A DNA stretch of 64,000 nt from Clytia hemisphaerica. Its lineage: Eukaryota; Cnidaria; Hydrozoa; Leptothecata; Clytiidae. The DNA lies in the NCBI GenBank assembly GCA_902728285.1, contig CACVBU010000597.1, positions 1 through 64,000 on the forward strand, written 5' to 3'. The notes below the pieces were generated by a model. The model was not told the origin of the DNA and did not search any database. It was given only the letters and a program-made list of their open reading frames with translations. Shown here piece by piece: positions 4,991 through 52,749 of the stretch (position 1 is its first letter; each line of letters starts with the position of its first letter). The position numbers and the translations under genes are program-made.

Positions 4991-5102
4991 ATCAACAACG
5001 ATACCAAACCCAAGCCACAATTCCACCACCACTTCACTTGGGGAATCTGAACTTCAACCAATCAAACCAACTATCCAATCCAAACTTCAAGATGATGCAA
5101 CA

Positions 5103-12600: not shown

Positions 12601-15600
12601 ATTGCACATAGCATACTATTGCAAGGGTGTTTGCTCTTGTCTGCTAGTAGAAATACATTAACCTTTTTTCTTTTTTCAAACAACATTTTCACTTTTTCAG
12701 TCAACAGATAACTATGAAGGAGGAATTTCCAAATCAAGAACCTGCTGTTTATGCTCCAAGAAAAGCTGTGTCATCATAAACGTTGTGCTTGTTATTCTGT
12801 GTATTTGTCTAATATCAGCGACTACATACCTTGGAATTCAATCAACAAAAACATCATCAAGAAAATCTCGAACTACTTTGGAAGCAGGGTTAAAATTTTA
12901 CCAAGTGTCAGATACCCATTTAGACATTTATTACAATGAAAAAGTTAATGGTTTGAATTGGCAGATGTGCAGAGCAATAAAACGAAAAAATGGGTACATT
13001 TGTTTGGTTGTATCTATCATGTGTACTTGTACCTTTTCCATTGTTTTGTGTCTTTGTTCAATTGTTTTTGTTTCATATTTTTAGTGTATGGCAACAAGAA
13101 TGTTTAAAATGAGGGGTCCTGCTCTTTGCAGGTTTTATTTGGCTTCATTTGAATAAGATTCTCCTAACTTGTTTTAGGTATAAAGTCAATTACACAGAAG
13201 GGGCAGCTCCTTATGGCAGGATAAAATGTGATTCACCATACAAATTGTTACAATCATCAGCAGATTTTATTGGAAACCTGAATAGAGACACTAAAGCTGA
13301 ATTTGTCATTTTGTCAGGTAGGTCACCAGGTTTCTCAAGATTTTTTGGTAAAAGTTATTTCAACAAAAAAAGGAAAATGTTTTGAAGATTGATGTCAAAA
13401 AATTGTCTCATGGTTCATTCATATCAATAAGAATGAATTACAAATGATACCCATCAACCTGAGAAGCCTTCAGTGCAATATTGGTTGTCATCACTAATAT
13501 AATCCTTTTTGGACCTACATCAGAGGTCCGTTAAATTAATCTTTGATTGTTCGTTGGTCTGTCTGACGTTAGTCTGCTATCTTACAGTAAGGGAAGAAAA
13601 TTTGGCAGATTTGTCTGAAATCCGCCAAATTAAGTTCTTGACAAATTTGATTTTTTTCTTTTTATGTTCTTACCAAAATTAGCTTTGTCACTGATCAACC
13701 AAATTGAATTTCCTACAAAAAAACTTTTTCAGCCATCCGCCAAATTAAATTTCCACCAAAATTTCTTCCCTTAAAAAGGTAACAGCTTTTCTGGTGAGTC
13801 ATCACTTTGTGGGCAAATTTGGGCCGAAAAGTGCCTAAAAGCAGCATGTAGCTTGTTTTTCCTTTTTCTTCGATCTATTTTTATATATTTAAATCCTAAT
13901 AAAAACTAATGTAATTTGAACCATGACATAGTACATCATAATGACTTAATATTAACTTTTCAGGTGATCAATCAGCTCATGCTTACTCTAGTTTTGAAGT
14001 GGATGCATACAAAAGCATAGTATGGTCAATTGTCAACAGCACAAGAATCTTCTATGAAGCTACTGGTTTGCCAATCATTTTCAGCATTGGTATGAGATAA
14101 ATTTAGTAATTACACGTTTTTATAAAAGAACATCTAATTTTTTTATGCTTTCAGATGTTCTTAACTTTTTGAGTTTTAAGCATAAAAATGTTCTTAAAAT
14201 GTTCTGAAATTCACCATTGTATGTGCTTTCTTGTGCAATTTCCAGAAAAATTTGCCGTTCTAGCATCCATAAAGCCTTAAGATGTAAACAACTTGATCTT
14301 AATATTTTTTGCCATCGAAGCCTTATGTTATAGTTTTTTCATACAAAATAACGTGTAATGACTTAAAAGTAACAATTCCATAAACAAAAGAGTGTTCAAA
14401 AGTGTTTAGAAAAAGAATAACTAGCAGAGAGTTATATCTGTGATAATTTGAATAAGTAATTTGATGCCTTTACACTCAAATTAGAAATGTGACAGATCTA
14501 CGTATCTATGTATCTATGTCGGGCGTACGGTATTTCGGAATTGCGGAAATCAACCCTTTTTTCTTCGGAATATTGGAAATCGGGGAAAATTTCTTCGGTA
14601 CTTCAGAATTCTGAAATTCTTTTGGTATCGGAAATCCATGAATTTTTGCTTCGAAATTTGGGTATTATAAAGTTTTTATCTCCCTTTTTCGGAATTCATA
14701 CATGAAAATAATCAAAATTTGATCGGAAATTAGTCAAAACAAGGAAAATACCCAAAAAATTGGCAAGTATTTTTTTACGAAATTTCGGAAATTTTGGCTA
14801 AATTATTCGTTATTTCGTAAATCACAAACCCTGTATGCCCCCCCCCCTACAATCAGCACGGAAATATATTGGCAATTTTGGGATTTTAAAGTTTTTTAGA
14901 ATTTAAAAGTCGAAGCAGGTCGAACCGAGAATGGCAGTTTCAGTATCTCCACTTTCCTTAATCGGATTTTTTGATTTGGAAGGGGTTAAGTGGCTCCCAG
15001 ACTATAATTTCAGCCTTATTGGAACATTTTTAAGTCTAATGTTAAAACTCTGAGTTAAAACTCTTCTTCTGAATTGTACTTCAAAGCACTTAACAATCAC
15101 TTGCGGTTTTAAAGTTTTGAGAGAATTCCCCTTTTTTGCGAAATATTTCGGCGCTGATTGTAGATTTGATATTTCATTGTGTTGGTTAAAAAAAATTAGA
15201 ACTATCTGTATTCAATTTATTTTTTTTCAATTCTCGCAAAGCCTAAAATAGAATTTGGTGTTTTGAAGGACATTGTGATCTCCTTTATAGGGAATAATGA
15301 TTTACCCGTCCATTATAATCCACCAACAGAAAATCCTGACTTGTTCTATGGAGATTTGGTAAATGAACTGCGGAAATACATCTTCCCAAAAGCAACAGTT
15401 ATGTCAGAACTGAACAGTCCTAAAGATTTTAATGAAACATTTTTACAAGGTGGCTACTATGTTGCCCATGTGTCAGGTAGGTGATTTTCATACTGTTTTT
15501 GGTGGATTTTTAAAATAGTCAAGGGTGAGTATTACATATAGCATGTCCAAAAGGCCATAAATTTGGCGTAGATGTAGATTTCAGGAATTGCTGTTGTTTT

Positions 15601-18600
15601 TTTTGGGAAATTAGGGAAAAACTGCTTAATAAAGTCCCCCATATTAAAGTAATTATTATACTAAAACCAGGCTTTTTAGAACAATTTAATTTGATAGCTG
15701 GAAATTATTTTCAAAAATAAATAAATTGGGGGGGGGTCCTAATAACATTCGAAAATTAATAACCGGGTGAACGTTTATTCGAGACCTTAGAGTACAGTGA
15801 AGTCTCCATAATCTCCATTTCAAAAAATAAATAAATTGGGGGAGGGTGCTAATAACTTTCGAAAATTAATAACCTGGGGAACGTTTATTCGAGACCTTCG
15901 AGTACAGTGGAGTCTCCATAACTCGAACCTGCAAGGGGAACACGTATTTGTTAGAGTTATGGAAATTGGTCTTCAGGTGCTTGTTTACTGAAGGGACTAG
16001 AGAACTTGTTCGAAACAAAGAGAAATACGAGATATAGAAGTTCGAGTTATGGAAATTCAACTGTAAATGCATTTACAAATTTACAAATACATTTATGAAG
16101 GTGTTTGCTTATCTAGTGAATTTAAGTATAGTATAATTTTGAAGAGAATAATTTTGCATAAGTTCCTTTTTCTCTCTATTTAGAGTTGGTTCAAATTATC
16201 ACATTAAACACCAATTATTGGAATACAAAGTGCTTCAAAAATAATCCAAATATTACATATATTGGAGATATGCAAATAAAGTGGCTGGAAAATAGTCTCA
16301 ATAATGCTTCGAAGTCAAACAAGAGAGTTATTGTGACTGGTCACATCCCTCCAGGGTAATTATGCCTTGTAGATATACTGCTCTTTTGTCATATTTTATT
16401 ATTTTCTTCTACAAATTTTATATCATCACATATCACGGTTTTCTTGGTTCCCAGGAGGGGTACTTCGGCAAAAATGGGTGCTGGGTATGTGCGTACCTTA
16501 AGGGTCAGGTTTTTCGCTTTTCAAAGTCTCTCTAAAAATCAGAAATTTTCAGTCTCTCTAAGGGTCGGAAAATTCACGATATTTAGGAAATTGTAAAAAA
16601 GTTTCTCTTAGGGTGGGTAAGTGGGAGAAAATTTTTTTGGACCTACCTTAAGGTAGTCCTTCAAATTAACCCTGTCCGTCCGTCCGTTCGTTTGTCTGTT
16701 GCCAGCTTTTCTCGGGATCGGCTCATTAGTTTTTTCTAGTTTTTTGCACAATGATGCAAAATGGCAATGACCAAAATATGACGGAGCCCGACTTTCGAAA
16801 AAAAAAATTTTCCGGGCGAAAATGGCGGAAATATGCCGGAAAAATTGGTTTTTCAGCATTTTCTCGAGATTTCATCATTAATTTTTTCTGGTTTTTTGCT
16901 CAAAGATGCCCAAAACATGACCTAGTCCGATTTTTGAGAAAAAATTTTCCCCGGCGGGAATGGCTGAAATATGCCGGAAATCGCCGTTTTTCTAGATTTT
17001 CATTGGACTTTTTCCTTATAATTGGTTGTTTTTTCATTCAAAAACATTATTAATAGCAATGCCCACCATCAAGCATGTTTCAATTTTCAATAAAATTGAA
17101 TTTTGAACCCGGAACTATTTTAAAAGTCGCCGGAACAACCTATTTTCGCCGGAAAGACAGTATTCCTTGAATTTCTTGAGCTTTACTTTATGTTTTTTTA
17201 TGAAATTTTGCACACTGATGCAATATGACAATACCTAAAATGTGACGGAGCCCTATTTTCGAAAAACATTTTTTTTCCAGCCGAAAATGCCGGAAATATG
17301 TCGGAAAAACCGTTTTTTAACATTTTCTCGAATTTTCATTTTTAGTTTTTTGTGATTTTTTTCCGGTTGAAAATGCCGGAAATCGCCGTTTTTGCAGATT
17401 TTCATCGGATTTTTTCCTTATATTTCTATGTTTTTCACACAACAACATTATTGATAACAATGCTCACCATCAAGCATGATTCAATTGTAAATAAAACTGA
17501 TTTTTGCAACCAGAACCTATTTATTTTTTCCCTACAACCCTTCCCTCTCCCCCCCCCCATCAGCAATCAAGGATGAATTTATTGCGTTAAGTGTATTTTC
17601 GCTAAACGCTATATTTTCTGACTGATCTTTTTCATTTTTCTTTTCGCATTGCTATCTAACTTTCATCATCAGGATGAATGGTCCATTCAGCATGTTGCTT
17701 GTTTAAATTCTCTCTAAGAGTCACCTCTTCAGCAAAACTCAGTCTCTCTAAGGGTCAGGGTTTGGAGGTCCGGCACGCACATACCCAGCATCCCTCAACC
17801 CTAGTAGCCCACCCCCATCGGGTCTTGGTTGAACTGGAATATTTCTACTTCACTGCCTTAAGAGGATAAAATTTCGCGAATCAAAGGCCTATATAAACTA
17901 ATTTACCCGTCTTGCAATGCAGGGATTAAGTAGTTAATTCCGTTCTTATGGCTGAAATAATTTCGTGTGGACTAATTTTCGCGAATCAAAGGCCTTCAAA
18001 ATTTTCGCTTGGACGCGAAAATGGCCAAAATTCGCGAAAACCGCGAAAATTAATCCACACGAAAATTGATCCGCTTAAGGTATTACAAGCTAATGAAAAG
18101 GGATAAAAGGCTTTACCAGATCTGATTTATGTTAGTTGTGCAAGGATTTCAGTGAGACACTAAACCCAATGAAGAATAGTTAGAGTCTTAGAGAGAGGAA
18201 TCCTAAACAATTTCCAGGCAAGAAAAAGGAGTACATGAAGCACCTGGAAGCACTGTTCTTTGATTTGTTTTCTTCCTTCATTTATTTTTAAGAATCTGGC
18301 AGTGAATGTTACTTTTAAGCGTTCGACGTTAAAAATCAAGTGCTACCCACAACTAAGAAACCTAAGAAATTACTCCTACTTTCCAACTTTACTTGAATAA
18401 CTAAATTTATTTTGAAGAGCCTGTGACCATGTTCGCACGTAACGGTTCTGTTTCGCTCCGATACTAAATGAAGCCATTCTACTGGTTAGAAGTGACGTAA
18501 AGCTTAAATGTAACCAATAGAATGGCTTCATTTCATTTCGGAGCGAAACATAACGGCAGCGTGTGAACGTGATCGGCTTCAACAAATAAAATATTCCCTT

Positions 18601-21600
18601 TTTTCACATTTTCAAGTGTTTCAACGTATGGAAATGAAGGGAGTTATTGGCTGAAGAATTACACAACGAAATACATCCAACTTGTTTCCAACTACTCTGA
18701 CATCATCATAGGTATACTATTATTTCAGAGTACCTATTTCGTTATCATAATTTTGTACTTATATAGTTTGAATGAATTGTCGAGTTTTATAGTTGGGGGC
18801 CAAGCCTGGGGCCCCGTGACATCTTTTTTACGACGTAGCAATTTTTAGTCTATTCCAAAGAACAGTATTATTTTTGAGAGGGAAGACGTGGATTAGGCCC
18901 GGGAAAACTTTTTATGACCAGGCAAAACTGCAAGGGAAAATGTGGAGTAGAAAATAACTGATTTTCAAAAGTCAAAATAAACGAAAATGATCAGTACCAG
19001 TAATTGGAGTTTTTCCCAACTTTGTTTTCGAAAGGGAATAAGTAGGACGGAATTCCCACACATCTAAACATAAACAAAATCAAAAACTCTCGAACTAACA
19101 ATATTATTGTATTGATTTGTCAACATATGGATTCAACGAAAGATTTGCAATGCAAAGTCTTCAATTCAATGCTATAGATATTCACTAAGCTTCGCACAGG
19201 ACATTTACAGTGTACAGAAACACCTGGAAACACCCCTGTCTCTGTACCCCGATTGAGTACCGAAAAATTCAATGGGTGCAAGTCAAAACTTTAAAGCCCT
19301 CTCGGTCGGGACTAGCCAGTGCCTTACCACAAACCAATTTTTTTCTTTGTTTTTAACAGACGTTAAATCGCGATAAAAAAGCGGTTTTCGTCTAACAGGC
19401 TAGGTCGGGACAACTATCATATAATATTTTTCCACTGGGGTAAAAAAGATTTCTTGTTCTTTCATCGTATTTTCACTTTTCTGTGTTATCACTGGGGTGA
19501 GAGAGACCATCTGAATTTCCACTGGCGACACTGGGGCTGACTGGGGTGACCGTTTTCTTAACTGGGGTGAAAAAATGAGGGCTTTGTTGAGTAATCTTTT
19601 CACTGGGGCGGGCCCTGATGGGGCACAGACACATGGATGTACAAAAGGGTCCACAGAAGGGTCCAGAAAACTGTAAAATACTTTGTGTTTGTGGAAAAAG
19701 TTATTATGTGATAAATTGTCGTGACCTGTACAAGGAAATAGTAGGATGTAAATCTGAGTATATAGGGCATCTCGAGTTTCAGTTGTTTGTTAGTATTTTC
19801 AATTTTCTTATTGGACCTAACCCGGTGGGGTGGAGGTCCTATAAATTAACCTGTGTTCGTCCGTACGTTTGTCTGTTACCAACTTTTCTCAGGATTGAAT
19901 CATAGGAATCTTTTGGTTTTTGGTACAAAGGTGCAAATTGGTGGGTGGCCAAAATGTGACGGAGCCCGATTTTCGAAAAATTTGGGCCAAAAAACGGCTA
20001 AAAAACGGGTTTAAAAATTGGATCATTAATTTTTTCTGACTTTTTGCATGAAAATAGGGTACCATCATAGGTAAAAGATGGCTCAAGCAGATTTTTTTGG
20101 CTCAAAAAAACGCATGTTTATCTATAAGAATCAGTATTTTTTCTAAACAAAGGAAATGTCACCTTAAAGTGCGATGGTTTGAGTTTTCTAGAAACACTTA
20201 TTATTTTTCTGGCTGAAAAACGAATCTTTATCTATATAAGAATCACTATTTACTAGCAAGTAGCTGTCGCTATGAATGCCCCGCCGATAGCAGATATTAG
20301 CCCAGAGGAACTTAGCCATGAAGAGAGCAAGGGAATCATAATCAGACTATAAAATGGTGAAATGAGTCTTCATAAAAAGTGCTCAATGTTACTAGAGCTG
20401 TTTAAAGTTAAGAAACACGAGCCGATGCGGTTACAAATTTCTCAGTAAGATCCATACATACCGAAAGTGTCAATCCAAAAAAACACTACACTTTCTGATG
20501 CAAATTGAACTAAATTAAAACCATTACAGGTTTCGCAACATGTTAAGAACTAGAATGATATCAAAGTTGATTTTCTTCAATCACCAGATAAAAATCACTT
20601 TTGAAAACCCTAACATAAGAATGTGTACTGTGAAACTGAAAGTGCTTCCCTTCCATAAAGAATACATAATGCAGATTAAAGGTGAATGTGAATTCCAAAA
20701 TGAAATTGAATAGAATTTCAGTCATTTGATTTGAAATTTAAAGAGTAAGTAACTTTGGACTGGTGGCATACTGTAGATATAATTTATTTGTATCAAAGGT
20801 TACTGAAAATTATCTGAAAAACTTTAACAATCTTTATACGTGTTTCTGCAAAAAGTTTTCAGTTAAAATAAAATTTCTTCATGGTTACTAAAGATATGAA
20901 TTTAATAGTTGCTCTCAAAATTGGCAGTTGAATCAGATACTTTTAATAAAGGTATTAATTTCCAGTGATTAAAAATTTCCCGGATTTCACAGCCTTTGTT
21001 CTTATCTACGAAAGACAATAAAATAAAATCCTAAGAAAATCTGAAAAAGGGCCTTCAGCGAAAGTTAGTCACCATGAAAATATTAAGACATCATCTAATC
21101 CGCCACTGTACACAATTTCTTCTATTGCTGTGTAATCCACTTCCACTTCCCTGGCAAGCAAGAAAGCAGAGATTCTTCAACGAAATGACTGTTAATACAT
21201 AAAAATACCAAAACTTATTTTATCACTTTTTGAAAATAACTTAACGTGGGAAAACACGAAAATAATCCTTATTGCGAAAAGCTTAAATTTTGTGGATAGT
21301 GGATGCCCAACCGTGAGTATAAATTAATGGTTGAATGAATTATTACGAAGAATTAATCTAGGTGAATTGCTGAAGAATTGATAAATTTAAATAATACAAA
21401 TTAGGGCCTAATTAATTAATCCTGTATTAATTAATTCTGCATTAATTTGTCCTCGCATAAATTCATACTCTTAAGGTAATTTCTACGAAATATAAATTGA
21501 TCTAATTAAAGTAGTGCCAGACTTTGTATTTCAACAAGTGTGTTTGTTTCACTCCCATAAAAACAGATTCATCTTGTCTTCAATCCATATGTTTTGAAAA

Positions 21601-24600
21601 TAAAGGCCATGGGAATTTCAGATACTGTGTCCTGTTGTAACAACCGTCAACATGGTTAAAAACTTTTCACTTCACAGGTAGGTACAACATTTGTGTTTGT
21701 ATTTTATTGGACGTCTGGTTCTAAAAAGTCAAAAAGTTTGTTCAGTTTAGATTTGAGCAAAGTATGCTCCTGCGTTCAACATCAATACGGTACAGCGTGC
21801 CATGGTGGTATTAGTAGAGAGAGTGTTCGAGTCTGTTCATAATATGAGGCTGAAAATCTTCGGCGTACATACATATCGAAGTACCGTTCTGGCACAGTGA
21901 CATAAACAGCATTTTCAAAGTTTGCTTAAGCTTCAATACAATATTGACGTAAAGAATTATTCACAAAATAGCATCAAATACTCCATAATCCATCGTTTTT
22001 CGGCTTTTGTTCCGCTTCTGTTTACATCTTTCTGCTCGCTGCCCCCCATGCTCAACCATTTTTTGCTGTAACACTGTGCTTCTGTGACGAAGGGAATTTA
22101 GATATTTTTCCAATTAATACTACGTTTTCTAACAAGTGTAAATAACATCAGTAAATTAGTAACTCTGGCGTGTGATTTACGATAGTTCTCTTTCAAGTCC
22201 TTCTCCTTCAAATTCTCCTTTCGAGTCCTTTTCCTTTGAGCTCTTCTTTCGAAGTCCTCTTCATTCGAGCTCTTCCTTCCAAGTCCTTTTCCTTCGAATT
22301 CTCCTTTTCAAGTCCTTCTCCTTCAAGTTCTCCTTTTCAAGTCCTTCTCCTTCAAGTTCTCCTTTTCAAGTCCTTCTCCTTTCGAGCTCTGCTTTCCAAG
22401 TCTTCTTCCTTCGAGCTCTCCCTTCCAAGTCCTTGATTTCTTTCCTTTACTCGCTCATATTTGCTCGCCCTATTCAGGGGTCTGGGCTCGAGGGTCTGAG
22501 CTCCACTCTATTGATTTCTATTCATCTTTCAGTTCATTAATATCGTGTTGGCTTAGTCCCAGTCTCTGTTTGCATTATTCATCAATGATTAGTTTACTAG
22601 CTTCACATCTCCGACGTTCGACAAGTGACGTCCTCGTCACTTCAAAAAAAAAATTGGGATCGTGGTTTCGCTTACTTCTTTCTTTCAGGAATCATTAACT
22701 TTTTAATGCTTTTGCTTTTGTGCTGATGTTTTGGTGCAATTAAGTGCTCAATTGTGGTTGTTTACTTATCGAGTTTTCAAAACTGTTTCAAAGGGTTTAT
22801 TCTTCTCTGGATTTTAGTTAGTACATTGATATGACTCCACATCCTCATTGTTTGACAGTGACGTTCTCACTGGACTGCATTTCAAGTTTTCATCTTTGCA
22901 GGTCTTCAAGTTGTTTTCATTGTTGATGTCGGTTCTTTATATATCAAATTTTACGTATAGTTAACAATTTTCTAATGCTGAAATATTTTATCTGAAAACA
23001 ACTAAATTACAAATTATCGTCTGATTCATAAATATTACATAAACTCATCTCTTAAAAATTTCATAAAATCAATAAACTATTTGTTCAATTTCAGTTTCTC
23101 TTTTAACATTTCAGTCTTTAGGTAATTGTTAGTTTCATTCGGTAAACATATCTGCATTCTATTCGACATCTCGGAATTTATTCAAAAATTTCTCTGCGCT
23201 AATTTTTGTCTTGGTTGTAGTCGGTTAACTGTCCTTCTCAATGTACGCAATTTTGACTCGATGTAACTTTTTTTTTTTTGGTTTGGTGCTCTGTGCAGTT
23301 CTTTAAATATTCGTGTTTCATTAAATATCAACTTTATCAAGCATGGTTAAGTATTGAGTACTCAACACAATGAACGAAGTTTATTTTTGTTTCTGGGATA
23401 AATTTGTTGTTTTTCAGAAATTCTTTTCTTGTACTCGTAGATTTTTCGGTTGTGCCATTGGTTTTTCTGGTCGTATATTTTATCATCGTTGAGAATTCTT
23501 TCACTGATTTTTGGTTGCTGCTGGTTTTTCACTTGGTATTGTATTGTAAGATTTATCAACGATATGATATTCATAATCAGGATGTACAACGTTGGTAAAA
23601 TCATTTTCAGTAGCAGACTCAGTTGTATCTTGTTTCTGCTTCGATTTATCTGGTATTTTCGGCATTTCAGTTGAAACCTCATACATTCTGTCGACTGTTT
23701 TGTGGATATTTGAACACTCTCATATGATTTCGGAATATTATTGGACGGGTGTTCAATATTCTTGGACGGCTCTTGAACACTACAACATGGATTTTTAATA
23801 CTCTCGGTTGGCTTCTTCATAATATCGGACGGTTTTTCGATAATATCGGTCGGTTTTTCAACAACTTCGGACGGCTCTTTGACAATTTCGGACGGCTTTT
23901 TAACAATCTCGGACGGCTTTTTGACAATTTCGGATGACTTTTTAACAATCTCGGACGGCTTTTTGACAATTTCGGATGACTTTTTAACAATCTCGGACGG
24001 CTTTTTGACAATCTCGGACGGCTTTTTGACAATTTCGGACGGCTTTTTCACAATTTCGGATGACTTTTTAACAATCTCGGATGACTTTTTGACAATCTTG
24101 GATGACTTTTTGACACTCTCGGACGGCTTTTTAACAATCTTAGACGGCTTTACAATATTCTCGGACTGGGTTATTCTGTAAGACTTTTCAATATTCTTGG
24201 ACAGTTTTTTCTCAATTTCTGACAAATGCTGTGAATTATATGGTGGCTGATGGATAACCTTGGAGGGGGTTTGAATAATTCTAGATGAATGTTGAATCAT
24301 TTCTTGCGATTTCTTTAGCGGAAGATGGCATATCTTTGGAGACAGGTTTGTAATCTTTGACAACGGGTGAAGTTTCGACGGTTCATAAACAATTTCGCTT
24401 GGTGAATGAAACTTCGGTGGTTGTTGATATGTTATACGTGGTCGTTGAATAATTTTTGGTGGTCGGTAATGAACTCTCGGTGGTGAGTGAACTTCGATAA
24501 TGATAGGTGGCGGTTGAAGCTTTGGTGGTTGTATAAATGTCTTACGCGGTTGGCGAATAATTGTCGGTGGTCGGTAGATAATATTTGGTTGTGGGTAAAT

Positions 24601-27600
24601 TTTTGAGGATTCTCGAGGTTTCTGGTCTCTAACCAGCGTTTGCATTGAAGTGTAGCGGCGTCCATCTAAGGAGATTCTTCTATTTTGTTGAGGAGGTCTG
24701 TTCCGTTGTCGCTTGAGATTCTTGATTTTGGCTTGCATTCTTTCGATCTTTCTCATTCCGTCTGTTGATGATGCAAATTTTGGTCGGTCAAGCGTATTGA
24801 TTGTTTGAGGCATTATCATTCGTACCTTTTGTTCGATCATCTCGAATACTTGTTCATCGAGATCTCTTTCATCAGCGTACTCATTTAATGACACTCGTCT
24901 TGGCGTTGCACTGGAAGATTGGATAGTACACGCGTCAGCTGCTAATTTGTCGATCTTTTCGTTCAGCTCTTTGAGCAGTTTGGTGGAGTTCACATTGTAA
25001 TTCGGCTTGATCGCGTTCTCTAATCTGATGTAAGCCACTGCTTCACTGAAGGTTTTGAATCTCTTTAAAATGATTGATATTCGTAAATCCTCATTCAGTC
25101 CGGCGATGAGTGAATCCAATTTCTGCTCATTGCTGTAATTTAATTGCTACACTAGCTCTTCGAGTTTTTCAAGGTAGACATCTAGTGATGAACATTCCTC
25201 TTGTTTGAGTTTGACTAGTTCAGCTTTCTTTAACATTCTGATATCGGACGACCAGAAGTAGTTCAGCAACATCTCTTTTATCAGCTCGTATGAAGGCTTC
25301 ACGTCTGCTGGTAGCATTCTGTAATAGTGCATCGCGTGACCTTGTAAGCCACAATGTTAGAAAAAATGCAAATTTTTGCTCGAAAATGTTGATCTTTTTT
25401 GCTCTAAAAGAGTTTAAAATTGCACTGAAAAAATGCACTGTAAGGGTATGAATTTCACCGATTTTTTTCTGCACTGTAAGGGTGTGATTCTAAAAGCCAA
25501 TTTTTTCGCCGCATATACCGTCAGTTGGTAAACTCACTGCCCCTGAGATTTCTAGCCATATGTTCTTTTTATTTGAATCTTTATTTGATTTCTATTTACG
25601 TCATCAAATAACTCAAACAATACACATCAATTTTTTTGAAAAATAGAAGTCGCCAAAATTCTGCAAAATACATAGCTATTCGGTAATTTTCTCGGAAGCG
25701 ATATCAGAGCCCGATTCGCATCCCCTATATCAAAACTAATTTGGGGATGCATGCAGCCCATTGTTTATTAAGCTTTGCATTTTTCTGATAGTGGATTGTT
25801 TTTATAAAGAAAAGCGTTTAATAGCTTTTTTATTTCTTTTTCAAAAATCTTTTTCAATAGTGTTGATAGTTTCTTCCAATAGATATGCTTTGATTTTTCT
25901 TTATTTTTTTTGTATTTTGTCCAGTTATGTCTCATGTGTTTCATCGTTTCAATGTTCATTGATTAGTTTGATAACCAGGTAGGTCCATAAAAGTATCACT
26001 TGTTTTATATCTGTTTATATGTGTTGGTGTACTTTCATTGTTAAATGAAAGTGAAAGTAAACAGTATATTTCTACACAATGTCACAAAGTTGCATAGGAA
26101 TGGTGTTTTTGATATTTCCACCCAAAAATGGGGGTGGTACCTGAATTTTTTTCCTGGAAAACAGTTACCACCCTGGTGCAGTAAATGTAGAAACCCCTGG
26201 TGCCTAAATTTTTTTTTCTGAAAACAGTTACTTCCCTGGTGTAGTAACTGCAATAGGTGGTGATTCTAGAGAAAAAAAAATTTTAAAAAGACACTTACCA
26301 CACATTATATCTTGCTTGTAGTAAATGCGTGCCGCCTGTTTTAATGAAAAATTTTTTCCCATGCATTTTTTGGATCTACCCCGGTGGAGGTTCTATAGAT
26401 TAACCGTTGTCCGTTCGTTCGTTCGTTCGTTCGTTATGAGCTTTTCTCGAGATTTGCTCGTTAGTTTTTTCTGATTTTTTGCACAATGATGCAAAATGGC
26501 AATGCCGAAAATGTGACGGAGCCCGGTTTTCGGAAAACAAGTTTTTGGGTAAATTTCAGCCAAAAAAGGGCTAAAAAAGTGTTTTTTGGACTTTGTGGAA
26601 TATTTTATCATTATTTTTTTCTGATTTTTTGCATGAAAGTAGGGAAGCATCATAGGTAAAAGATGGCTCAAGTAGATTTTCGCAAAAATAAATTTCAGCT
26701 CAAAAACGCATCTTTATCTATAAGAATCACTATTTAAATAAGCATACATACATGTTCTTAGCCAGATTACTCTATTTTTTTATTTTTCTATATTTTGATT
26801 TCTTAGCCAAATTACGCTCTATTTTTTGAAGAAATAGATATTTTTTACTCATGAAGGCTTAATTTTGAAGAATATTTGTGTTTAGACATAAACTTTTGGC
26901 TGCTAGACGTGTTTTTACAGAAACAATGGCTAAAGTCGATATTTTTTTATAAGCACATTACCAATTGCTTAGTTATTACTATTAGCTTTTCTCGAGATTG
27001 GCTCGTTCATTCTTTATGATTTTTTGCTCTATCTTACAATTCCTGCATTACTAAAAATTGACAAAAAAGAACGACAAATTTCATAAAAAACGACAAAAAA
27101 GAATGACAAATTTCATACTAATTTAAATTTTTATCCATAAGAATCACTATTTATAAGCATACATTAATGTTTTTTAGCCAAATTTCTCAATTGTTTTATT
27201 AGATTGGTGTTCTTTTGCACGTGAAGGCTTAATCTGAAGAATGTTAGTGTTTACCACTGACCTTTATATACCCTGGACCAAGCTTCTCAATGCCAGCCAA
27301 GCAAAATCTTTGATCGGAGTTTTTTGAAAAGTGGTACCCTAATGGCGGCACTACTCGATAGCGCTGTAAATACATCGAGAGCGCTAGGTCTACTTTTCCT
27401 CAAATTCTTTTGATGATGTAGCGGCGTTAGACGTCAATTTTTAACATTGCAATGGCTTCTCCTCGGGTACCAATTCCAAAAAAACTCCAATCAAAGATGG
27501 CAGATATTGCTTGGTCCAGGGTTATATAAAGGTCAGTGGTGTTTACACATGAAGTGTTGGCTGCTCGACGTGTTTTTATAGAGAAATAGGCCAAATTCGA

Positions 27601-33718: not shown

Positions 33719-33778
33719 AATGGAGTAAATGTAGACTACGTCATATCTTCCTCTTTTTCGAACGTAAAACTCGCACTG

Positions 33779-35111: not shown

Positions 35112-35189
35112 TAATAAAATTCAAGTGGTTGCGTCCTAGAAAAGTTGTCATGGATCCTTAGTTTTGCCCCCTACTACAACAGTTAATGT

Positions 35190-36752: not shown

Positions 36753-36960
36753 GTTTACACATGAGCTTGATTACTTAAGTTTACACATGAGCTGCATTTC
36801 GGTTTATTTATATCTATATCAGAACAGAAGTTATCATTTTCTAAAAATAAAGTTTTTTTGAAAACAAGAAACTAAAAATGAAAGTGATTTAAAAGGAGAA
36901 TTTTCACTCATAAAATTTTATGAAAACTTGAGCAAAGATATAAGATATGACAGAATGTTG

Positions 36961-37984: not shown

Positions 37985-37992
37985 TTTCTTGT

Positions 37993-38261
37993 CAATGAAA
38001 TAAAAACCAGAAAGGTCTAGAAGTGAATCTTCTAGGTATAGGATTTGAAGCCATTAAATCCCACCTAAGCTGCGCGACTTCACACAAATGCTGGATGAAA
38101 TTAAAGTTTACCGCCAGATTTTCAAAAATGTACAACTCGAAAACAAAGAAATCGCTAGATTCCGTCATCAAAAATACGGCGCACATTTAAAAGGCTTCGC
38201 TTTTTCTTGCCTGAGAAAGGTTAAAGATTCGCTTCTAGCCCTTTGGGATTCTATTTCATTG
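37993..38261. mobile_element. 269-bp MITE with 8-bp target duplication TTTCTTGT, upstream of gene 2
   Basis: CAATGAAATA starts the element and its inverse ends it; the arms continue into AAAGG.CTAGAAG.GAATCTT. TTTCTTGT is duplicated at 37985-37992 and 38262-38269. Same family as 36467-36752. It ends 412 bases before the start codon of gene 2, so it may contribute to that promoter region. Confidence 0.9.
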
Positions 38262-38673
38262 TTTCTTGTTGCTTTAGTTTAGCCTGAATTTGTGTAATCT
38301 ATCGGGTCGTGTGAGTTTTTAGTCATTCTGAGCCTCATGTTTCTTAAAAGTGTGTTTCTTAAAAAAAAAAAGACGTGTATTTGTCTTTCAGAAAAGAAAA
38401 GAGTAGTTTGCGGTAAATTAAGTCCAGGTTTTTGTAATTAACTCTGTTTCCGCCGCTATCAAATAAAGTCCTTCATTTTGTAAAGAGTTTTCCGCTTAAA
38501 GTGATTGGAATGTTTTTTTGAACTGAGCTTTTATTGTTTTTTCCTGACCGCCATTGGTTTTATGAAAAAGCTACTTTGATTGAAGTCGGGTGCTGTTTTG
38601 TTTTAGTCAGGCAAAGGTTTCATGACAGAAAGACGGGCAGAAAGAGTTATTTTGTCATCAACAACTCAAAAAC

Positions 38674-41600
38674 ATGGAAGAACGAACCCCTCTAGTGATA
38701 GTAAGTAACTTTTCAAAATCCTTCTCTGATTTTCCCCAATTTAACACACATTCAAAAAAAAATTAAATTCGACGCGCAAGATTGGAGTTAAAATTCTTTA
38801 TTTAATCAGGCTTGTACAGTATGTATCGTATATTTATAAATAGACCTTTTCATAAATTACGTCACGGACATCGCACTTGCCACGTTTGAAATTTTTGCCA
38901 TGGTGATTAACTCCCAGCGGATTTTATCAAAACTACTTTCTATTCATAAAAATTTATTGCTTTGATTTGATTAGTTTTTTTTTTAATCCTGATATTTTCA
39001 ATAGCGCACCGCGCTGAATCTAAAAATAGATTTTATTTTTGACATAATCATTGCTCTCGATGTGTTTGTACGAATTCCAATCCCATCAACCTTTGCGTTA
39101 ATCTCTTTTGCACGTTAATTTGCATCGTTTGACAAAAGATATGTAACAGCTTGCACGTATCTTTAATTGAGCCGCGTTGAATTGTGGGATTGCAACTCGT
39201 ACAAATGTCAAAAAAAGTGAAAAGTAATAATTATGACGTATGTGTTGCGGAGCGCTATTGAAAATCCGCAAGTAAATGCCTCCGCCATTTTGGTGAGTAA
39301 TAATTGACAACAAACAAACAAAAAACAGACACAAAAAATATGATTATTTGCCAGTATACTTGAAGCTGTGTAAGCCACCAGGGCCGCCAGGACTAAGGCA
39401 CGCGTGCACACGTTGTTCGAAAATGAGATTTTGAAACTGTGGGCCCCCTCTTTTATTTAGGGGGGAGGGGTGGGGAGGACTGTCCTAACGCACTTTGTAA
39501 TAGACGCATTTTGTAATACCTGACGCACTTTGTAAAAAATGACACACTTGATTAACTTGATGATACTTCGAGAAGAAGCCGACGATCAATTTACATTTAT
39601 AATAATCGACGGAGCTTTATGGCGCGCCAAAAAAAGGTTTTTAATACCAACCTTTTTTTTTTATTCCAATTTTTTTTTTCGACACCAACTTTTTTTTTTT
39701 CAATACCAACTTTTTTTTAATACCCTAAACGATTCCTCCAAATATACGGTACTGGCCTCTTTAAGTCGCAGAATCGTTTATTGCGAAGCGAATTTATGAG
39801 CGAAGCAGTTTTGCTATATTGTGTGCACGTACCTTTAACTTCTATCCCAATTGAAAATTTGCTATGAAATTTGCTATATAAATCACATCTCCAAACCGAT
39901 GATTTTATCAAAATGACCTTGAATGGTTTGGCTTGAAGCCACAGAAACTTTCTCGGTTTGGTAGCTAGGACTGCGAAAAATGCCGTTTTAAAATGGTGTA
40001 CCCTAACAGTGAACAGCAACAAAATTAGCGGAAGCCGAAACACGGACTTAGAATCTGAAGTTGATCAAATTGCCGCGCGGGCGGCACGCATCTAAGCAAT
40101 CTAAGCAGTGGTTCTTCGGTTTTAAATGTTTATTTTGCTGTTATATGAAAAAAATTAGTTTCAACGTTGACAGAAAGGATCTTCATCATCCCTTGACTTT
40201 TAACAGCAAGTATCAAGTATCAAATAAGGTCAATCAATGAGAGGTTTTTGCAAGTCGCGCGGGCGGGGGCGGGCGGGAGGAGTGCTCTTTTAATGAACGA
40301 AACTTACCTTGCAAAACCAAGCGGATATTCTATGATAAAGAAGTACGGAGGTAATCAAATTTGTCGAATTTGTCAAGAAATAAATCAAAACTGCCCAAGA
40401 ACCAACAAGCCATCATTGTACATTTTTGTTTTTGTTTTATTTTTATGTTTTGATGATTATGACAGACGATTCTTGATTCGAATAAAAATGTTCGATCGTT
40501 CGACAAATATCGTTCGATTTTAATAAGGCACCATTTACACTAGAATAACTAGAAGGAAAAAAAGAGTGATGCGCGGGCGGCGGCGGGTGTTGTGCCGCCG
40601 TGGGTTATGTGGTGTGTTTGGGGCATTAAGGCTCTTTTACGACCCTGTCTCTATATCTATAGCGGCTTTATTAGAGGGATTTTTCGAGTGTCTCTTATTT
40701 TGCTAGCAACTTGCGGATTGAGGTGGAGTCTGGGTCGCTTCGCAACCCTTATACAAAACGGCTAGTTTTGCTAGCAACTTGCGAATTGAGGTTGAGTCTG
40801 GATCGCTTCGCAACCCTTATACAATACGGCTAGTCGGCCCTGGCTCGCGAGGGTGTGAAGACCTGGCCGCCCGCCGCCGCAAACAAACGCCCTCCGACTG
40901 TCGCCCAAAATGGAAATTCAAAATGGTAGTCGAAAACGTGGGCCGATAAAACAAATAGTCGGGTTCAACTAATAAATATAAGATTTCCATTGAATAATAC
41001 AGCATTTTGGTGTTCTTAAATACACCCCATGCTAATCTTGCAAAATTTAAGCATAATGCGTAAGGTATAGCTTCATTCAGCTGAACCCGATTGAACGTAT
41101 AAAGCCACTGGAAAAAAAGTTTAAAAAGTCGTGCAGTTCAGTGTTCAGAACTTTTGTGTTTTACACTAACAGGAATTTTTAGCTCCTTTTTGCAAATCAA
41201 ACTGTTTTCTTATAGTAGAAACAGAGTCAAGTTTATTTCATAGTTTTAGATATTTTTTCTTAGGGGTTTGATGATATGAAACCAAACAAAGAACTGCCAT
41301 AATTTGTTTTTTATTTTCAACACCATTAAATTACTTTTATCTTTCAATTTTTTTATTAGTTTTTTAGACATTTGAAAATGCGCGAAAATTCAAACGCGTT
41401 CGAGAAAACGCCCTTGATGCCGCCCTCTGCCTAAAAAAATGCTTTCCCCATTCGCGGACGTGTTTGGAACCATGTTTTTTACTCAAGGCGCACATTTTGT
41501 TAGCGAAGATGTTATTTTTGATTCACTTTGAGTGTTTTGGATAGCTTGGCACAGGAAAAGAAGAAAATAATGAGTTTTTAAGAAATAATGAACTTTTTTG

Positions 41601-47600: not shown

Positions 47601-50600
47601 CGCGTTGCTGAATTTTGACATGAAAATTTCAATAAGGGTACTGTACATGAAAAAACTTGAACGGGACTCAATGTGGGTTAAGTAAAACAAAAAATAATGA
47701 TTCAAAGACATGCTCCGTTCGCCTGTGCCTGCCATTATGGGAAAGATCCGAACCTGCGCTGCGAACAGCACCCAAAAAAACCCAACGATTTTACTGACTT
47801 TCCGAATCTGGTTTTCTTGTAAATAAACAGTCGGTCGGACGACCCGAACGCAACATATTTTTGATTGCCCCCTTATCTTAATTTAAAATATTAACATTTG
47901 TTTAAAAAATTAAAGAAAGGAAAAATTGCATTTTTAGCTCATATTTTATTTTAACTTCATTCCTGAAAAAAGTAAGTTGCTCTAGTCAACCAACGTGGTA
48001 TATTATACCTTATCAGTGAAGCCAAGTTTGAAATTATTCTGTATTAGAAAAATGGTTAAAAGCAGTCAAAATGCAATTTATCTTACTTCCTCCAGAGTTT
48101 GTCTTTGTTTTATGCTAAAATATAACAAACCTTTGTCATACTGTCTAATTACAAAAACCTCCAATCACAAATTCAGCGCCATCTTGTTTCACTTTAAATG
48201 CCGTGTTTTAAAATTCCTCAGCTACATTATATGTACGGAAAAGGTTTTCTCCAGGCTTTTTCAATCCCAGGATTAAACTATGAGGGCGGTTCCGCTCGCT
48301 ATTTTCCTTTCAATATTAAGCCCCGCGATACTCAATGAAAGAGATTTTAATATTAATGTTGAAATGTGTATTTTTCCGATAAATTTAGATATATACTCAA
48401 CAAAAAATAAGGTGGTTTTAAACAAATCTTTGAGAAATTAGCGTTTCTTTTTGTTCTAATATATGCAAATCACGTCGAAAAAAGAATACATTTCCGCCTT
48501 TACTTTCACTTTTGCTTTCGTGCTATGCGAATCTGATTGGATAAACACCACTCGCTATCAAATTCTGATTGGCTGTAAGTCTTTAGCTTCGGGATTCTGA
48601 TTGGATTATTTCCCATGCCACGGCTGAATTTTGATTGGTTGAAACTTTCTGAACGTGAATTCTGATCGGATGAATACCTGAAAAGTAAACAATAGTATGT
48701 AAGTATTTTGCTTATCAAAATCTAAAGATTTCCAGGGGGCTTTATTTACTTTGTATGATGATAATTAAGCCTACAAAGCACCAAGAAAAAAACCAACATA
48801 GAACAGGTAATAAGACCTTATGCTAAAAACGAAACCAATTACGGCAAAAATTTCTCAAAAATAGCAATTTTCGTAATACTTCAAATATTGATACTTGACT
48901 GTACTGGTTTTTTAAGCTAGGGGGGGCAATAGTCGTTTGGAAGACTTATGGCTATATTGATTATTAGAACAATAAAAGATGGGTGCCGCATGCAAGGGTA
49001 GTGGAAAACACCCCCTGATAATAATAGGGTTAAAAAGTCAAAAATCAAATTAAAAGCTTTACTGTAGTAACTGGGAGGATAAAAAGGAAAAGAACAAAAA
49101 GTCAAACAAAAATGAAGGAGAAGCTGACTAAATGGCTATCACAAGTTGTACAAATCAGAAGTTTCTTAAAACTGCTTTTTAATCAAAAATTGACTTTATG
49201 AACTGTCAATTTTAGAATTTTTGCTTTGTACATTTTTGAAAATGCATCGCAAATCACAAAAAACTATACGTTAATTTAATCACTGCTTTTTTAAGAAAGA
49301 ATTATTTTCAAATTTTAAGTATTTGGAGCAAGTTACCAACTTTTCTATGTTCTAATTTTTAATGCACCTGCATTCAGTTTTACTGTAGTAACTGGGATGA
49401 CCTTTAGATAAAAAGGAAAAGACAAAAAGTCAAACAAAAGTGGCTTTGCTAAAGAAAGAGGAGGCAGGAAGGAGCAGGCCTTAGCAATTTTCAGTAAGGA
49501 CAGTCCTGGGAAATGGAGGAGATCGAAAGTTTCTTTTCTTCAAATATATTTTCTTTTAAAAACTGTGACAATTCTTTACAAATGAGATAAAGAGAGAAAA
49601 TCTTGTGGAGCTAACATCTATGATAATAAAATGCAAGAGGGCCTCAAATGAGGAACATGAACACAGGAAACTTCAAACACTTCTTGCAAGTTATTGAACA
49701 CAGTTCAAGTCATTCCCTCACAATGTGAAATTGATATGCTTGAAAAGGGTAAGGAAAAACAAAACCATTGGTGAAAATATGTATTAAAATTAAAAGAGAT
49801 AATTTGAAGATAAAAAGGATTATGAGGAAATGTTCAGTATTATATACTTTTCTACACAATGTATAATTGGGTTCAATGTTTTTTCATACTGGCTCCTGTG
49901 TTCCCAGATTGTCATTTAATTGCCAACCATAAGGCTGAGTGTGGGACATTTGGTGAGAGTTTTACATTGAACATAGCTTCTTTTTTTTTGAAATGTGAAA
50001 AAAATTTAGCAGGAAGCTAAGCTAACAAATCAAAATTGAAATTTAAAATTTGTTTTTCCCCCATTAATTTTTCAGACCACTTCCAATCAGGAGGGAGGAT
50101 CAAAATCTTGTGATTCATGCTCAAAAAGAAGCTGTACCATTATAATCATTGTGCTTGCTGTTCTATGTTGTTGTCTCATATCCGTAGCCATCTATCTTGG
50201 AGTCAAATCGACCAAAACATCATTGAAACCTAGTACCTTGAATAATGGGTTACAATTCTTTCAAGTATCGGATACCCATCTTGATATTTATTACAATGAT
50301 AAAGTTGATGGTTTGAATGGGCAGTTATGTAGATCAATGAATCAAACAGGCGGATATAAAGTCAATTTTACAGAAGGATCAGCTCCTTATGGGAGAGTGC
50401 ATTGTGATTCACCGTACAAGTTGGTTCAATCATCAGCAGATTACATTGGAACACTAAATGAAGAGTCTAATGTAAAAGCGCAATTCATTTTATTGTCAGG
50501 TAACTGCTTTGATAATGTGGTTCATTTCTGAATTTAAGAAGGAATTGCAAAATTTCAGTATGTAACAAATCTATAAATAAATTTTGTAAAGCTCACTTTT

Positions 50601-52749
50601 ACTGGAAATGGCAAATCAACTCAGCATTGTTCTTTAAGTTTTTCTTTGTTTCTAACCATCACTTTTTTTTCAATTTAAAATGCAAGGTGTGTTACTGTGT
50701 ACAGTATATGGGGGTAACATTTTCTTTGTTCTCATTGTTGTTTTTATTTAAAGGTGACCAAGCAGCTCATGCTTACTCTAAATTTCCTGAAGTGGATGCA
50801 TACAAAAGTTTAGTGTGGTCAATTGTCAACAGCACAAGAATCTTCTATGAGGCTACTGGTTTGCCAATCATTTTCAGCATTGGTATGTTTGTTGTCTTTT
50901 TGGTCAATAAGCTTTTGTCAATTTCTACAAAGCAAGTTTTTCTTAAAGTATGTAAAATTCATAATGTTGGAATCTTACTAATTCAAGTTATATCATTTTA
51001 ATTTTCATATTTTATTGTACTTTTTTGCAGGAAACAATGATATCCCCCTTCATTATAATCCACCAGTTGAACACCCTGAGTCGTTTTATGGAGACCTATC
51101 AAATGAAGTAACCAAGTACATCTTTCCAAAGAGCTCTGTGTTGGCTGAATTGAACAGTGTCAAAGAATTCAATGAATCCTTTCTACAAGGGGGTTATTAT
51201 GTCGTCAATGTTTCAGGTACAGACCTTAACTTCACTGGCAGCTGAATTTTCGTAGGGGAGCTTTAGGCCATAACACTCCTGAAATTATAGCAGTTATAGT
51301 AATGAAAACCACTGTAAGAAATTTTGATTATGTTATTATTCTAGAAGCTATATAGCAACTTTTCAATATATTCCTTATAGAATTTCTGCAACTCATCACG
51401 TTGAGTACAAACTATTGGAACTCAAGATGCTTTACGATCAATCCAAGTATTACCACCATTGGTGATCGCCAAATGAAATGGCTGGAAAACACTCTCAAAA
51501 CTGCTGCAGCAACGAACAAAAAAGTTTTGGTCTCAGGACACATCCCAGCAGGGTAACAATTCCTTTTGGACTTTCTTTAGATTGTTATAAAGTTGTAAAA
51601 ATATTCATTGACAACGGTAAAATTCCCCCATTGACATACAATGTATTTGGATTGGGGAGAAAATACTTAGCCATTCGTCTCAGAAAATCATGAAAAACAT
51701 TATTGTGCAATTAGGAAAATACTTATATCTAAATTTTCTCAAAATCACTAAAAAACAGACTTTGGCCCGTTATGATGAAATTCTTTCAATTTCTATAGTA
51801 TTTCAACTTACAAAGATGAAGGGAGTTTTTGGTTGAAAAACTACACAACAGTTTACGTCAAACTCATGACTGATTTTGCAGACATTATAACAGGTAAGAA
51901 TGCTACTTAAATCAATGAAAACAAGAGCTTTTGCAAATCAATTGAAATTGATTTTAAACGTTCAAGAGAAATAAAGAGCGGTGGTTAGAAGATTGATACT
52001 TTTCCAAATAAGATAAAAGCTTTGTTTCTATTTCAGGGCAGTTTTATGGACATGCACATAAAGACAAGATCAAAATTCAAAACGTTCACGATTCTTTCTA
52101 TCCAAATACACAACCTTCAATACCAAAGGCTTTTCTTTTGATGTCTCCAAGCATTACACCCATCCAAGGAAATAATGCAGCCTTTCGTTTGTTTACTTTG
52201 AGTAAAGATCTTGAGCTGTCTGATTATACACAATATTATATGGATTTTATACTTGCTAATGGTAAGAAAAAATCTTTGCAATTTAAGTTTAACATTTTTG
52301 AAAATGGCTTCCTTTTTTAATACAAGTTTTGAGAAAAGAATGTCTTAAAATTTTCTTCTATCTCTTTCTTTACGATGACACCATCGTCCATTAGCACTTT
52401 GTATTTTAAAACTTTACATATTAGTTTGGACACTGGTTTTGTTATTGTAATAAATGGTAACTATCTTTCATATCCTTTTTCAGTATTTTCAAAGCCTTCA
52501 TGGAAAAAAGAATACACGTTCTCTGAATGTTATGGGGCTAGCATCTCAGCAAAATCCATCCAAGATATTGTACAGAATGTTATCTCCTCATCTGACAACT
52601 CAACCTGGGTACGTTACATGACCCATATGAGAACGTTGTATGGTGGTTTTTCAACTGAAGTTATGTTCAGAGAGTATTGTGGTGCACAACATTTTACTTT
52701 GGAAGCTTACTTAGCTTGTGTGAAATATTATGAGACCAATGGATTTTGA
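38674..52749 (+). CDS. SMPDL3-like: Acid sphingomyelinase-like phosphodiesterase (SMPDL3 type), gene 2
   Basis: Exons: 38674-38700, 50076-50499, 50754-50882, 51031-51216, 51381-51552, 51799-51893, 52037-52261, 52484-52749; all phases fit (507 aa, stop TGA). Tandem paralogue of gene 1 with the same fold markers: DTH (res. 75-77), GDQAAH (151-156), GNND (194-197), SGHIPAG, GQFYGHAHKD (345 on), and the C-terminal YCGAQHFTLEAYLACVKYY. The N-terminus is MEERTPLVI, a Cys-rich stretch CDSCSKRSC, then a hydrophobic segment (about 30-52), so a type II membrane protein with a short cytosolic tail is inferred; ERTPLV resembles an acidic dileucine sorting signal. Several N-glycosylation sites (NFT, NST, NES, NVS, NYT) lie in the lumenal part. 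Intron 1 is 11.4 kb and full of transposons; the other introns are 0.15-0.3 kb. The stop is only 432 bases from ELP1. Substrate unknown. Confidence 0.92.
39471..39720 (+). repeat. Short simple repeats
   Basis: GACGCA(C/T)TTTGTAA occurs about three times at 39485-39535, followed by several poly-T runs each preceded by CCAA or CACCAAC (39650-39720). Intron 1 of gene 2. Confidence 0.6.
40261..40277 (+). other. G-quadruplex-forming motif
   Basis: GGGCGGGGGCGGGCGGG has four G-runs of three or more with single-base loops. It stands in a locally GC-rich part of intron 1 of gene 2 (40055-40880), unlike the AT-rich surroundings. Confidence 0.75.
40698..40834 (+). repeat. 68-bp tandem duplication
   Basis: The unit TTTTGCTAGCAACTTGCG, continuing GAGTCTGG(G/A)TCGCTTCGCAA and CCCTTATACAA(A/T)ACGGCTAG, is present twice head to tail with few differences. 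Confidence 0.85.
42047..43163. mobile_element. 1.1-kb nested element, CAGGGCTGCAAATAA ends
   Basis: CAGGGCTGCAAATAA and its inverse bound 1117 bases; subterminal TCGGACAT and CAGTCGGTCA words occur at both ends. AACCTC flanks both sides (42041-42046, 43164-43169); GAACCTC also matches if the boundary is shifted by one base, so the duplication is 6-8 bp. CAGGG termini would fit the hAT group. Confidence 0.8.
44059..44284. mobile_element. MITE with TTTTCGCGAA, CTTTAATTGGATT ends
   Basis: CTTTAATTGGATTAATTTTC at the left and the related inverse (AAAATCAATCCAATTAAA) at the right. Interior words TTCGCGAATTTATATTTTCG and TTGCGAGA. Nested in the 5.1-kb element; it accounts for much of the plus-strand frame 43886-44212. 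Confidence 0.65.
46921..47389. mobile_element. MITE, CCGTGAGTGGTCCTAAATC ends, TA target duplication
   Basis: CCGTGAGTGGTCCTAAATC at the left and GATTTAGGACCACTCACGG at the right, followed inward by CAGCCCTGCCTAAT / ATTAGGCAGGGCTG. TA at 46919-46920 and 47390-47391; the next MITE starts within that TA. Confidence 0.85.
47391..47873. mobile_element. MITE, GGCGGCAATCAAAAATATGT ends (copy 2, inverted)
   Basis: Reverse-orientation copy of the element at 8550-9017, sharing the ends, the CGGTCGGTTGGTCGG-type block and the GGTATTGGCCCTAC block. It abuts the preceding MITE directly. Confidence 0.8.
48532..48669 (-). promoter_or_regulatory. Phased cluster of five inverted CCAAT (NF-Y-like) motifs
   Basis: TCTGATTGG at 48532, 48564 and 48596, TTTGATTGG at 48630 and TCTGATCGG at 48661: spacing 32, 32, 34, 31 bases, about three helical turns. 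CCAATCAGA is the preferred NF-Y (CCAAT-box) site. It lies in intron 1 of gene 2, 1.4 kb upstream of exon 2. Function is inferred. Confidence 0.55.
48990..50070. other. Intron 1 end of gene 2, with a 60-bp direct repeat
   Basis: TTTACTGTAGTAACTGGGA, then ATAAAAAGGAAAAGA and AAAAAGTCAAACAAAA, occurs at about 49057-49111 and again at about 49379-49439. Otherwise AT-rich, with no exon-like segment until the acceptor at 50075. Confidence 0.6.

Follow-up and report, generated by a model that had tools for sequence, protein, structure and literature searches.

The window analysed here is a stretch of 64,000 nucleotides of Clytia hemisphaerica (contig CACVBU010000597.1, positions 1 to 64,000, assembly GCA_902728285.1). 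It carries two genes on the forward strand, gene 1 and gene 2, whose predicted products resemble acid sphingomyelinase (ASM, SMPD1) and the related proteins SMPDL3A and SMPDL3B. In both genes the fourth metallophosphoesterase motif (motif four) reads Gly-Asn-Asn-Asp (GNND). The His that follows the metal-binding Asn in SMPDL3A is replaced by Asn, and this is the single change relative to SMPDL3A among the catalytic positions.

Gene models and catalytic residues

Gene 1 begins with a probable first exon at 9617-9658 and has its stop at 33718; for gene 2 the corresponding positions are 38674-38700 (probable first exon) and 52749. Not counting these first exons, the spliced frames are open to a natural stop over 8 exons in gene 1 and 7 exons in gene 2, and the internal introns between these exons are all GT-AG. 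With the first exons included, the predicted proteins have 513 (gene 1) and 507 (gene 2) residues. The probable first coding exons, MEDSDDSSNSPLVI in gene 1 and MEERTPLVI in gene 2, were assigned by sequence and phase: both end with Pro-Leu-Val-Ile, followed by a GT donor in a phase that fits the next exon, and the gene 2 exon gives a weak tblastn match to that of gene 1 (expectation value E 0.79).

In gene 1, the exon at 12701-12993 encodes a predicted transmembrane helix (hydropathy peak 2.9 over 19 residues) and DTHLD, and the exon at 13178-13317 encodes CDSPY with the Asp partner of the GDxxxH His; in gene 2 these elements are joined in one exon (50076-50499). Exon 3 (13964-14089 in gene 1, 50754-50882 in gene 2) contains GDQSAH and GDQAAH, respectively, and ends with the first base of the Gly codon of GNND, while the rest of this codon opens exon 4 (15291-15476 and 51031-51216). 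GHIP is encoded at 16184-16355 and 51381-51552 (exon 5), followed by the exons at 18617-18711 and 51799-51893 (exon 6), GHAH at 28529-28753 and 52037-52261 (exon 7), and the last exons, which lie inside the ASMase_C region and end with the stop (33456-33718 and 52484-52749). The ASMase_C family of Pfam was matched by both products (40.0 bits for gene 1 and 30.1 bits for gene 2, cut-off 23.7) and the Metallophos family by gene 1 (33.0 bits, cut-off 21.5), which aligns with SMPDL3A across this domain. Searches with NCBIfam and PHROGs profiles gave weak or general matches only.

After the Gly codon, which is split between 14089 and 15291 in gene 1 and between 50882 and 51031 in gene 2, motif four continues with AAT AAT GAT at 15293-15301 and AAC AAT GAT at 51033-51041. 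An earlier reading of the window made from the letters alone, here called the sequence-only reading, had claimed exactly these exon boundaries and GNND in both genes, and both claims are confirmed by GT-AG introns, uninterrupted frames and the codons themselves. Because exon 4 holds the two Asn codons and the Asp codon in full, a moved junction would not turn the second Asn into a His, and GNND as a splice-junction error was rejected. A more general artefact of gene modelling or assembly could be suspected, since the gene models were predicted from genomic DNA and in a related locus on contig C261 exon 3 is missing its end together with the donor. However, Asn-Asn-Asp recurs at this place in three loci, two in the window and the one on C261, and frames and splice sites agree in both genes. 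At the level of the sequence the artefact reading is already refuted.

The seven metal ligands (D, H, D, N, H, H, H), as listed in PMC5062611, are all kept in both proteins in alignments to SMPDL3A and to an ASM-like protein of Microvirga. The same alignments show that the His of GDQ(S/A)AH and the Asp of CDSPY are conserved, which by position would correspond to the proton-donation pair of PMC4961792. The sequence-only reading was therefore right that the metal-binding Asn is retained and that DTH, GDQ(S/A)AH, GHIP and GHAH are present in both genes. Its remark that GDD reads GDQ is true to the letters but describes no deviation. SMPDL3A has S and SMPDL3B has D as third residue; the PDB chains of SMPD1 carry I, the SMPD1 of C. 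hemisphaerica itself V and bacterial relatives L or F. Since this position varies across the family, GDQ is unremarkable, and it was rejected as a second defect.

Age and distribution of the GNND motif

Between gene 1 and gene 2, synonymous and nonsynonymous divergence (dS/dN) amounts to 0.79/0.24 in the first large exon, 0.22/0.04 in exon 3, 2.5/0.18 in exon 4, 2.1/0.23 in exon 5, 0.20/0.04 in exon 7 and 2.1/0.22 in exon 8, and in exon 6 dS is beyond measure with a dN of 0.25; values of dS above 2 indicate saturation only. Exon 4, which carries Asn-Asn-Asp, is synonymously saturated and not homogenised, and thus GNND is older than the duplication that gave rise to the two genes. Of the two possibilities left by the sequence-only reading, namely that the change predates the duplication or was spread across it, only the first stands. 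Spread of GNND by gene conversion was rejected, the homogenised exons being 3 and 7. Exons 4, 5 and 8, with saturated dS and low dN, are under purifying selection.

Exons 3 and 7 are 91-93% identical in DNA between the genes with a dS of about 0.2, unlike exons 4, 5, 6 and 8, which are saturated. In the introns, within 200 bases on either side of these two exons, no clear similarity was found, and similarity upstream of exon 3 was marginal. The confinement of homogenisation to exons suggests conversion of exons 3 and 7 by a spliced copy (complementary DNA) and not ordinary gene conversion. Gene 2 (50076-50499) is without the intron that splits the two gene 1 exons within 12701-13317, and this absence would fit recombination with a spliced copy.

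Relatives were sought in the genome of C. hemisphaerica itself (417 Mb, 951 contigs), solved structures, plasmids, bacterial genomes, viral contigs and phages. For eukaryotes, the spread of GNND is judged from this genome and the solved structures. Two of 72,556 plasmid records matched, from Microvirga and from Legionella adelaidensis, the latter being left out of the motif counts. The Microvirga protein (P0001, WP_157934732.1) has GNND and scores above the Pfam cut-offs for both ASMase_C and Metallophos. In 377 genomes from one bacterial phylum eight matches were obtained at E 1e-6, four of them over nearly the whole profile; two of these four have GNND (L026, L029) and two GDWD (L027, L028). 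At E 1e-15, searches of two classes (317 and 52 genomes, partly shared with the 377) yielded these four loci only. In L027 and L028 the last metal motif reads AHEH, and the usual metal-binding Asn of motif four is changed too. Of the five bacterial ASM-like proteins read, three thus have GNND, two GDWD and none GNHD or GNHE. The sequence-only reading had given GNHD as the motif of the family; this holds for SMPDL3A and SMPDL3B, but SMPD1 has GNHE and the bacterial members differ as described. It had also considered that GNND might be common among active relatives. This is borne out only in part: the motif is found in three of the five bacterial members, which are putative enzymes.

No relative was confirmed among viral contigs, neither from 201 pattern matches obtained with query A1 nor from the one match obtained with P0001. 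A DNA pattern for GNND-CGDY had no match in the viral contigs, and tblastn had none in the phages. The sole locus from a scan of genome contigs (L023, frame 1630-3438) was rejected as a general metallophosphoesterase without GNND, GNHD, GNHE or GHxH in the place expected for the family. In a limited literature search no GNND-bearing ASM-like protein was recognised among the matches listed, and the available parts of PMC12841337, on a liver-fluke SMPDL3A, and of PMC1764738 contained nothing that bears on the motif.

The genome of C. hemisphaerica also contains SMPD1-like exons on contigs C622 and C796, which read WTGDVPAH and ALGNHE and, when joined, match SMPD1 chains of the PDB with E 2e-91 to 3e-87. 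SMPD1 is present twice on these contigs, in blocks that are 86-99.6% identical, mostly 94% or more. A search of the genome with SMPDL3A gave five places at E 0.01, corresponding to gene 2, its relative on C261 and SMPD1. Gene 1 was missed by this query, and a diverged SMPDL3 could therefore have escaped it as well. A DNA pattern for Ala-[Leu/Ile/Val/Phe/Met]-Gly-Asn-His-Asp, which misses motifs split by an intron, gave five matches in the genome (three with the control). None was SMPDL3-like in its context on reading, and one of them (L051) was not assigned. Searches of the genome with the profiles PF19272 and PF01353 gave no match, controls included, and are uninformative.

Position in the family and probable function

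We propose, with a probability of roughly 0.58, that gene 1 and gene 2 encode active, membrane-anchored phosphodiesterases of a separate ASM-like lineage acting on substrates other than sphingomyelin, where topology, activity and substrate are what we infer. The lineage would have separated before SMPD1, SMPDL3A and SMPDL3B parted, and its products would be intact di-metal phosphodiesterases anchored at the N-terminus. In the usual chemistry expected for them, a metal-bound water would attack the phosphate, and the leaving group would receive its proton from the GDQ(S/A)AH His, which would be paired with the CDSPY Asp. The second Asn of GNND would replace the His that binds or orients the substrate in SMPD1, so that catalysis should survive and the substrate differ. 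Soluble phosphodiesters or phosphoanhydrides would be more plausible substrates than sphingomyelin. The Asn would be of old date and kept by selection, and it may precede the His of SMPD1 and SMPDL3.

Published work on SMPD1 bears on the role of the replaced His. In the murine enzyme, H280A is inactive and Asp249 assists His280; H317A, which changes the His of GNHE, hydrolyses bis(p-nitrophenyl) phosphate (bis-pNPP) slightly less and has no activity on sphingomyelin liposomes, and the role ascribed to His317 is binding or orientation of the lipid substrate (PMC4961792). In human SMPD1, N318 and H319 contact the phosphoryl group (PMC5062611), which bears out the claim of the sequence-only reading that the His next to the metal-binding Asn contacts the substrate phosphate. 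The YfcE subclass of class III phosphodiesterases has GNCD, and YfcE hydrolyses bis-pNPP (PMC4320098). From the data on H317A and H319 it follows that an enzyme without this His may still be active but should be impaired in hydrolysing sphingomyelin.

Another view is that the products are pseudoenzymes, catalytically dead and kept for binding a phosphate ligand or a protein. In its favour, the replaced residue is one in contact with the scissile phosphate, and the human SMPD1 allele H319Y leads to severe disease (PMC5062611). Nevertheless, neither protein has lost a metal ligand or a member of the His-Asp pair, and exons with saturated dS show a low dN. Changing the same His to Ala in murine SMPD1 costs little activity on a soluble diester, although activity on liposomes is abolished (PMC4961792), and an enzyme that naturally carries GNCD is active (PMC4320098). 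We regard a dead protein as very improbable, and the mere binding role offered by the sequence-only reading is disfavoured on these grounds. Its suggestion of altered chemistry or substrate divides in two: a change of substrate is plausible, and the catalytic chemistry would be the usual one, with ligands and His-Asp pair intact.

Membrane anchoring is suggested by a single, strongly hydrophobic segment close to the N-terminus, whose best window of 19 residues starts at residue 37 in gene 1 and at residue 30 in gene 2, and by N-glycosylation sequons, which occur only after this segment in both proteins. For each protein the prediction is a single transmembrane helix at the N-terminus and an enzyme domain that lies outside the cytosol. 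The N-terminal tail of gene 2, EERTPLV, comes near the lysosomal signal [D/E]XXXL[L/I], of which DERAPLI of LIMP2 is an example (PMC5297682), but ends with Leu-Val. Gene 1 has Ser where an acidic residue is expected, and thus its tail does not fit the signal. An endolysosomal location of both proteins is a guess.

The separation of the lineage is based on a tree of 13 sequences with bacteria as outgroup, in which gene 1 and gene 2 lie outside SMPD1, SMPDL3A and SMPDL3B with support 98/98. This exclusion was retained after removal of the motif columns (98/97) and also under LG+G4 without the motif columns (98/97). A clade of the two genes with SMPDL3A and SMPDL3B, a grouping named before any tree, was rejected by the approximately unbiased test (p-AU 0.011, and 0.020 without motif columns), values that come from a small sample with long branches. 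The other constrained groupings were chosen after seeing the tree. With SMPDL3A, p-AU was 0.026 (0.017 without motif columns), with SMPD1 0.014 (0.017 without motif columns) and with SMPDL3B 0.005 (without motif columns). The position of the two genes outside SMPD1, SMPDL3A and SMPDL3B therefore appears supported but not secure, and the designation as SMPDL3 paralogues in the sequence-only reading is doubtful.

The strongest competitor is that gene 1 and gene 2 are fast-evolving SMPDL3 orthologues, in which His changed to Asn once before the duplication, the bacterial GNND being convergent. The best match of both products among solved structures is SMPDL3A (E 7e-38 for gene 1 and 1e-31 for gene 2), and the branch leading to the two genes is long (1.1-1.7 changes per column). 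In the searches of the genome described above, with their limited reach, no other SMPDL3-like gene was found, which mildly favours this explanation. Against it stand the p-AU values for the clade with SMPDL3A and SMPDL3B and the exclusion under two models without motif columns. We consider it clearly the less probable account, although a serious one. Thus we rank the separate-lineage enzyme first, the altered SMPDL3 orthologue second and the dead binding protein third.

Several observations weigh against a separate lineage of active enzymes. With L026 and L029 as the only outgroup, support for the exclusion drops to 81/87. The trees hold only 13 sequences, with long branches flagged in every one of them, and gene 1 was flagged for an odd letter composition in three out of four tree runs for which this check is shown. 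A tree in which one branch sets all GNND rows apart was rejected (p-AU 0.0003, and 5e-5 without motif columns). The four partial bacterial matches (L030-L033), which cover about a third of the profile with E 2e-7 to 5e-9, are general enzymes and all have GNHD; they were left out of the family count, and with them GNHD would be found in four of nine. GNHD is also the signature of class III phosphodiesterases in the wider superfamily (PMC4320098). Neither the SMPDL3A query nor the DNA pattern, within their limited reach, found an SMPDL3-like GNHD exon in the C. hemisphaerica genome. Gene 2 has no Metallophos match in Pfam, though it was aligned over that domain with SMPDL3A. Finally, it has been argued for human SMPD1 that H319, and not H282, is the proton donor (PMC5062611), which would make the loss of this His more serious.

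Since a placement of all GNND rows on one side is rejected, GNND is the ancestral state or else has more than one origin. By the simplest count, with GNND on both sides of the root, GNND may be ancestral and GNHx a single gain in the branch of SMPD1 and SMPDL3. Two separate origins of GNND are a real alternative, because the signature of the wider superfamily is GNHD (PMC4320098). In a more speculative extension of the separate-lineage proposal, GNND would be older than GNHD and GNHE, the His of SMPD1 and SMPDL3 a later gain tied to lipid or nucleotide substrates, and gene 1 and gene 2 a surviving animal branch of endolysosomal, membrane-anchored enzymes that hydrolyse phosphoanhydrides such as polyphosphate. 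We hold this extension to be unlikely. If it were true, the two genes would be candidates for an animal phosphoanhydride hydrolase, and the animal enzymes that hydrolyse phosphoanhydrides such as polyphosphate are poorly established. Should the tree be right, the His discussed as proton donor or substrate binder in the SMPD1 literature is not fixed in the family, and a long-kept natural Asn variant could help to separate catalysis from substrate choice. Caution is also advised in naming such genes SMPDL3 or sphingomyelinase by best match.

Neighbouring loci and comparison with known systems

The relative of gene 2 on contig C261 (L009, about 325.8-328.8 kb) is collinear with gene 2 in blocks that are 92-98% identical, with 90-97% identity in the downstream region. 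A 68-base deletion removes the end of exon 3 and the splice donor, and collinearity ends upstream of window position 49546. The locus is either a second haplotype or a segmental copy. No second copy of gene 1 was found in a DNA search with its last exon. Downstream of gene 2, positions 60668-61186 (+) encode part of ELP1 (Elongator complex protein 1; PF23797, 57 bits; E 0.001 and 0.01 against ELP1 chains of the PDB), a gene whose start was placed near 53.2 kb by eye only. Remains of a retroelement of the long interspersed nuclear element type lie at 4920-7032; part of a reverse transcriptase is encoded at 6733-7032 (PF00078, 43 bits), and 4920-5399 resembles part of an endonuclease at a score below the Pfam cut-off. 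An open frame of 594 codons at 23362-25146 (-) contains a long run of EIVKKPS-type repeats, matches no Pfam family over the cut-off and may be a tandem-repeat artefact or a gene. The inverted repeat at 11547-11716 (74-base arms, 95% complementary, 22 bases apart), which has a relative on C261, is perhaps a small inverted-repeat transposon.

Among characterised proteins, SMPDL3A and SMPDL3B (PDB 5fc1, 5ebe, 5kar) have the two-domain layout, the metal ligands, the GDxxxH His and the CDSPY Asp in common with gene 1 and gene 2, and an SMPDL3A chain is 30% identical to gene 2. The two genes differ from them by GNND in place of GNHD, the predicted N-terminal anchor, 13 more residues between GNND and GGY and the tree position outside. 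SMPD1 shares the catalytic domain and the ASMase_C region, but has GNHE both in the copies of C. hemisphaerica and in the PDB chains, and its saposin domain was not matched in either gene (Pfam, E 0.01). The bacterial ASM-like proteins (Microvirga WP_157934732.1, L026 and L029) share GNND, GDxxxH, an Asp aligned with that of CDSPY and GHxH, and the Microvirga protein, like gene 1 and gene 2, scores above the cut-off for ASMase_C. They are 26-28% identical to gene 2 and differ by CGDY two residues after GNND.

Homology to this family has also been described by the respective authors for RsASML of Ralstonia, which converts ATP to AMP and was related to SMPD1 and SMPDL3A (PMC4140839), and for SMPDL3A-like domains in the phage-defence systems DS-8 and DS-9 (PMC13092281); both were left out of all counts of motif four. 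The YfcE-type class III phosphodiesterases have a natural residue other than His (GNCD) at the same place and keep diester hydrolysis, but they are small bacterial enzymes with an average of 183 residues (PMC4320098).

The polyphosphate reading, and only this, is motivated by yeast Ppn1, a type II membrane protein with a lumenal enzyme domain, whose ASM-like catalytic domain carries GNND. Ppn1 is a vacuolar polyphosphatase that needs Mn or Mg (PMC7381174).

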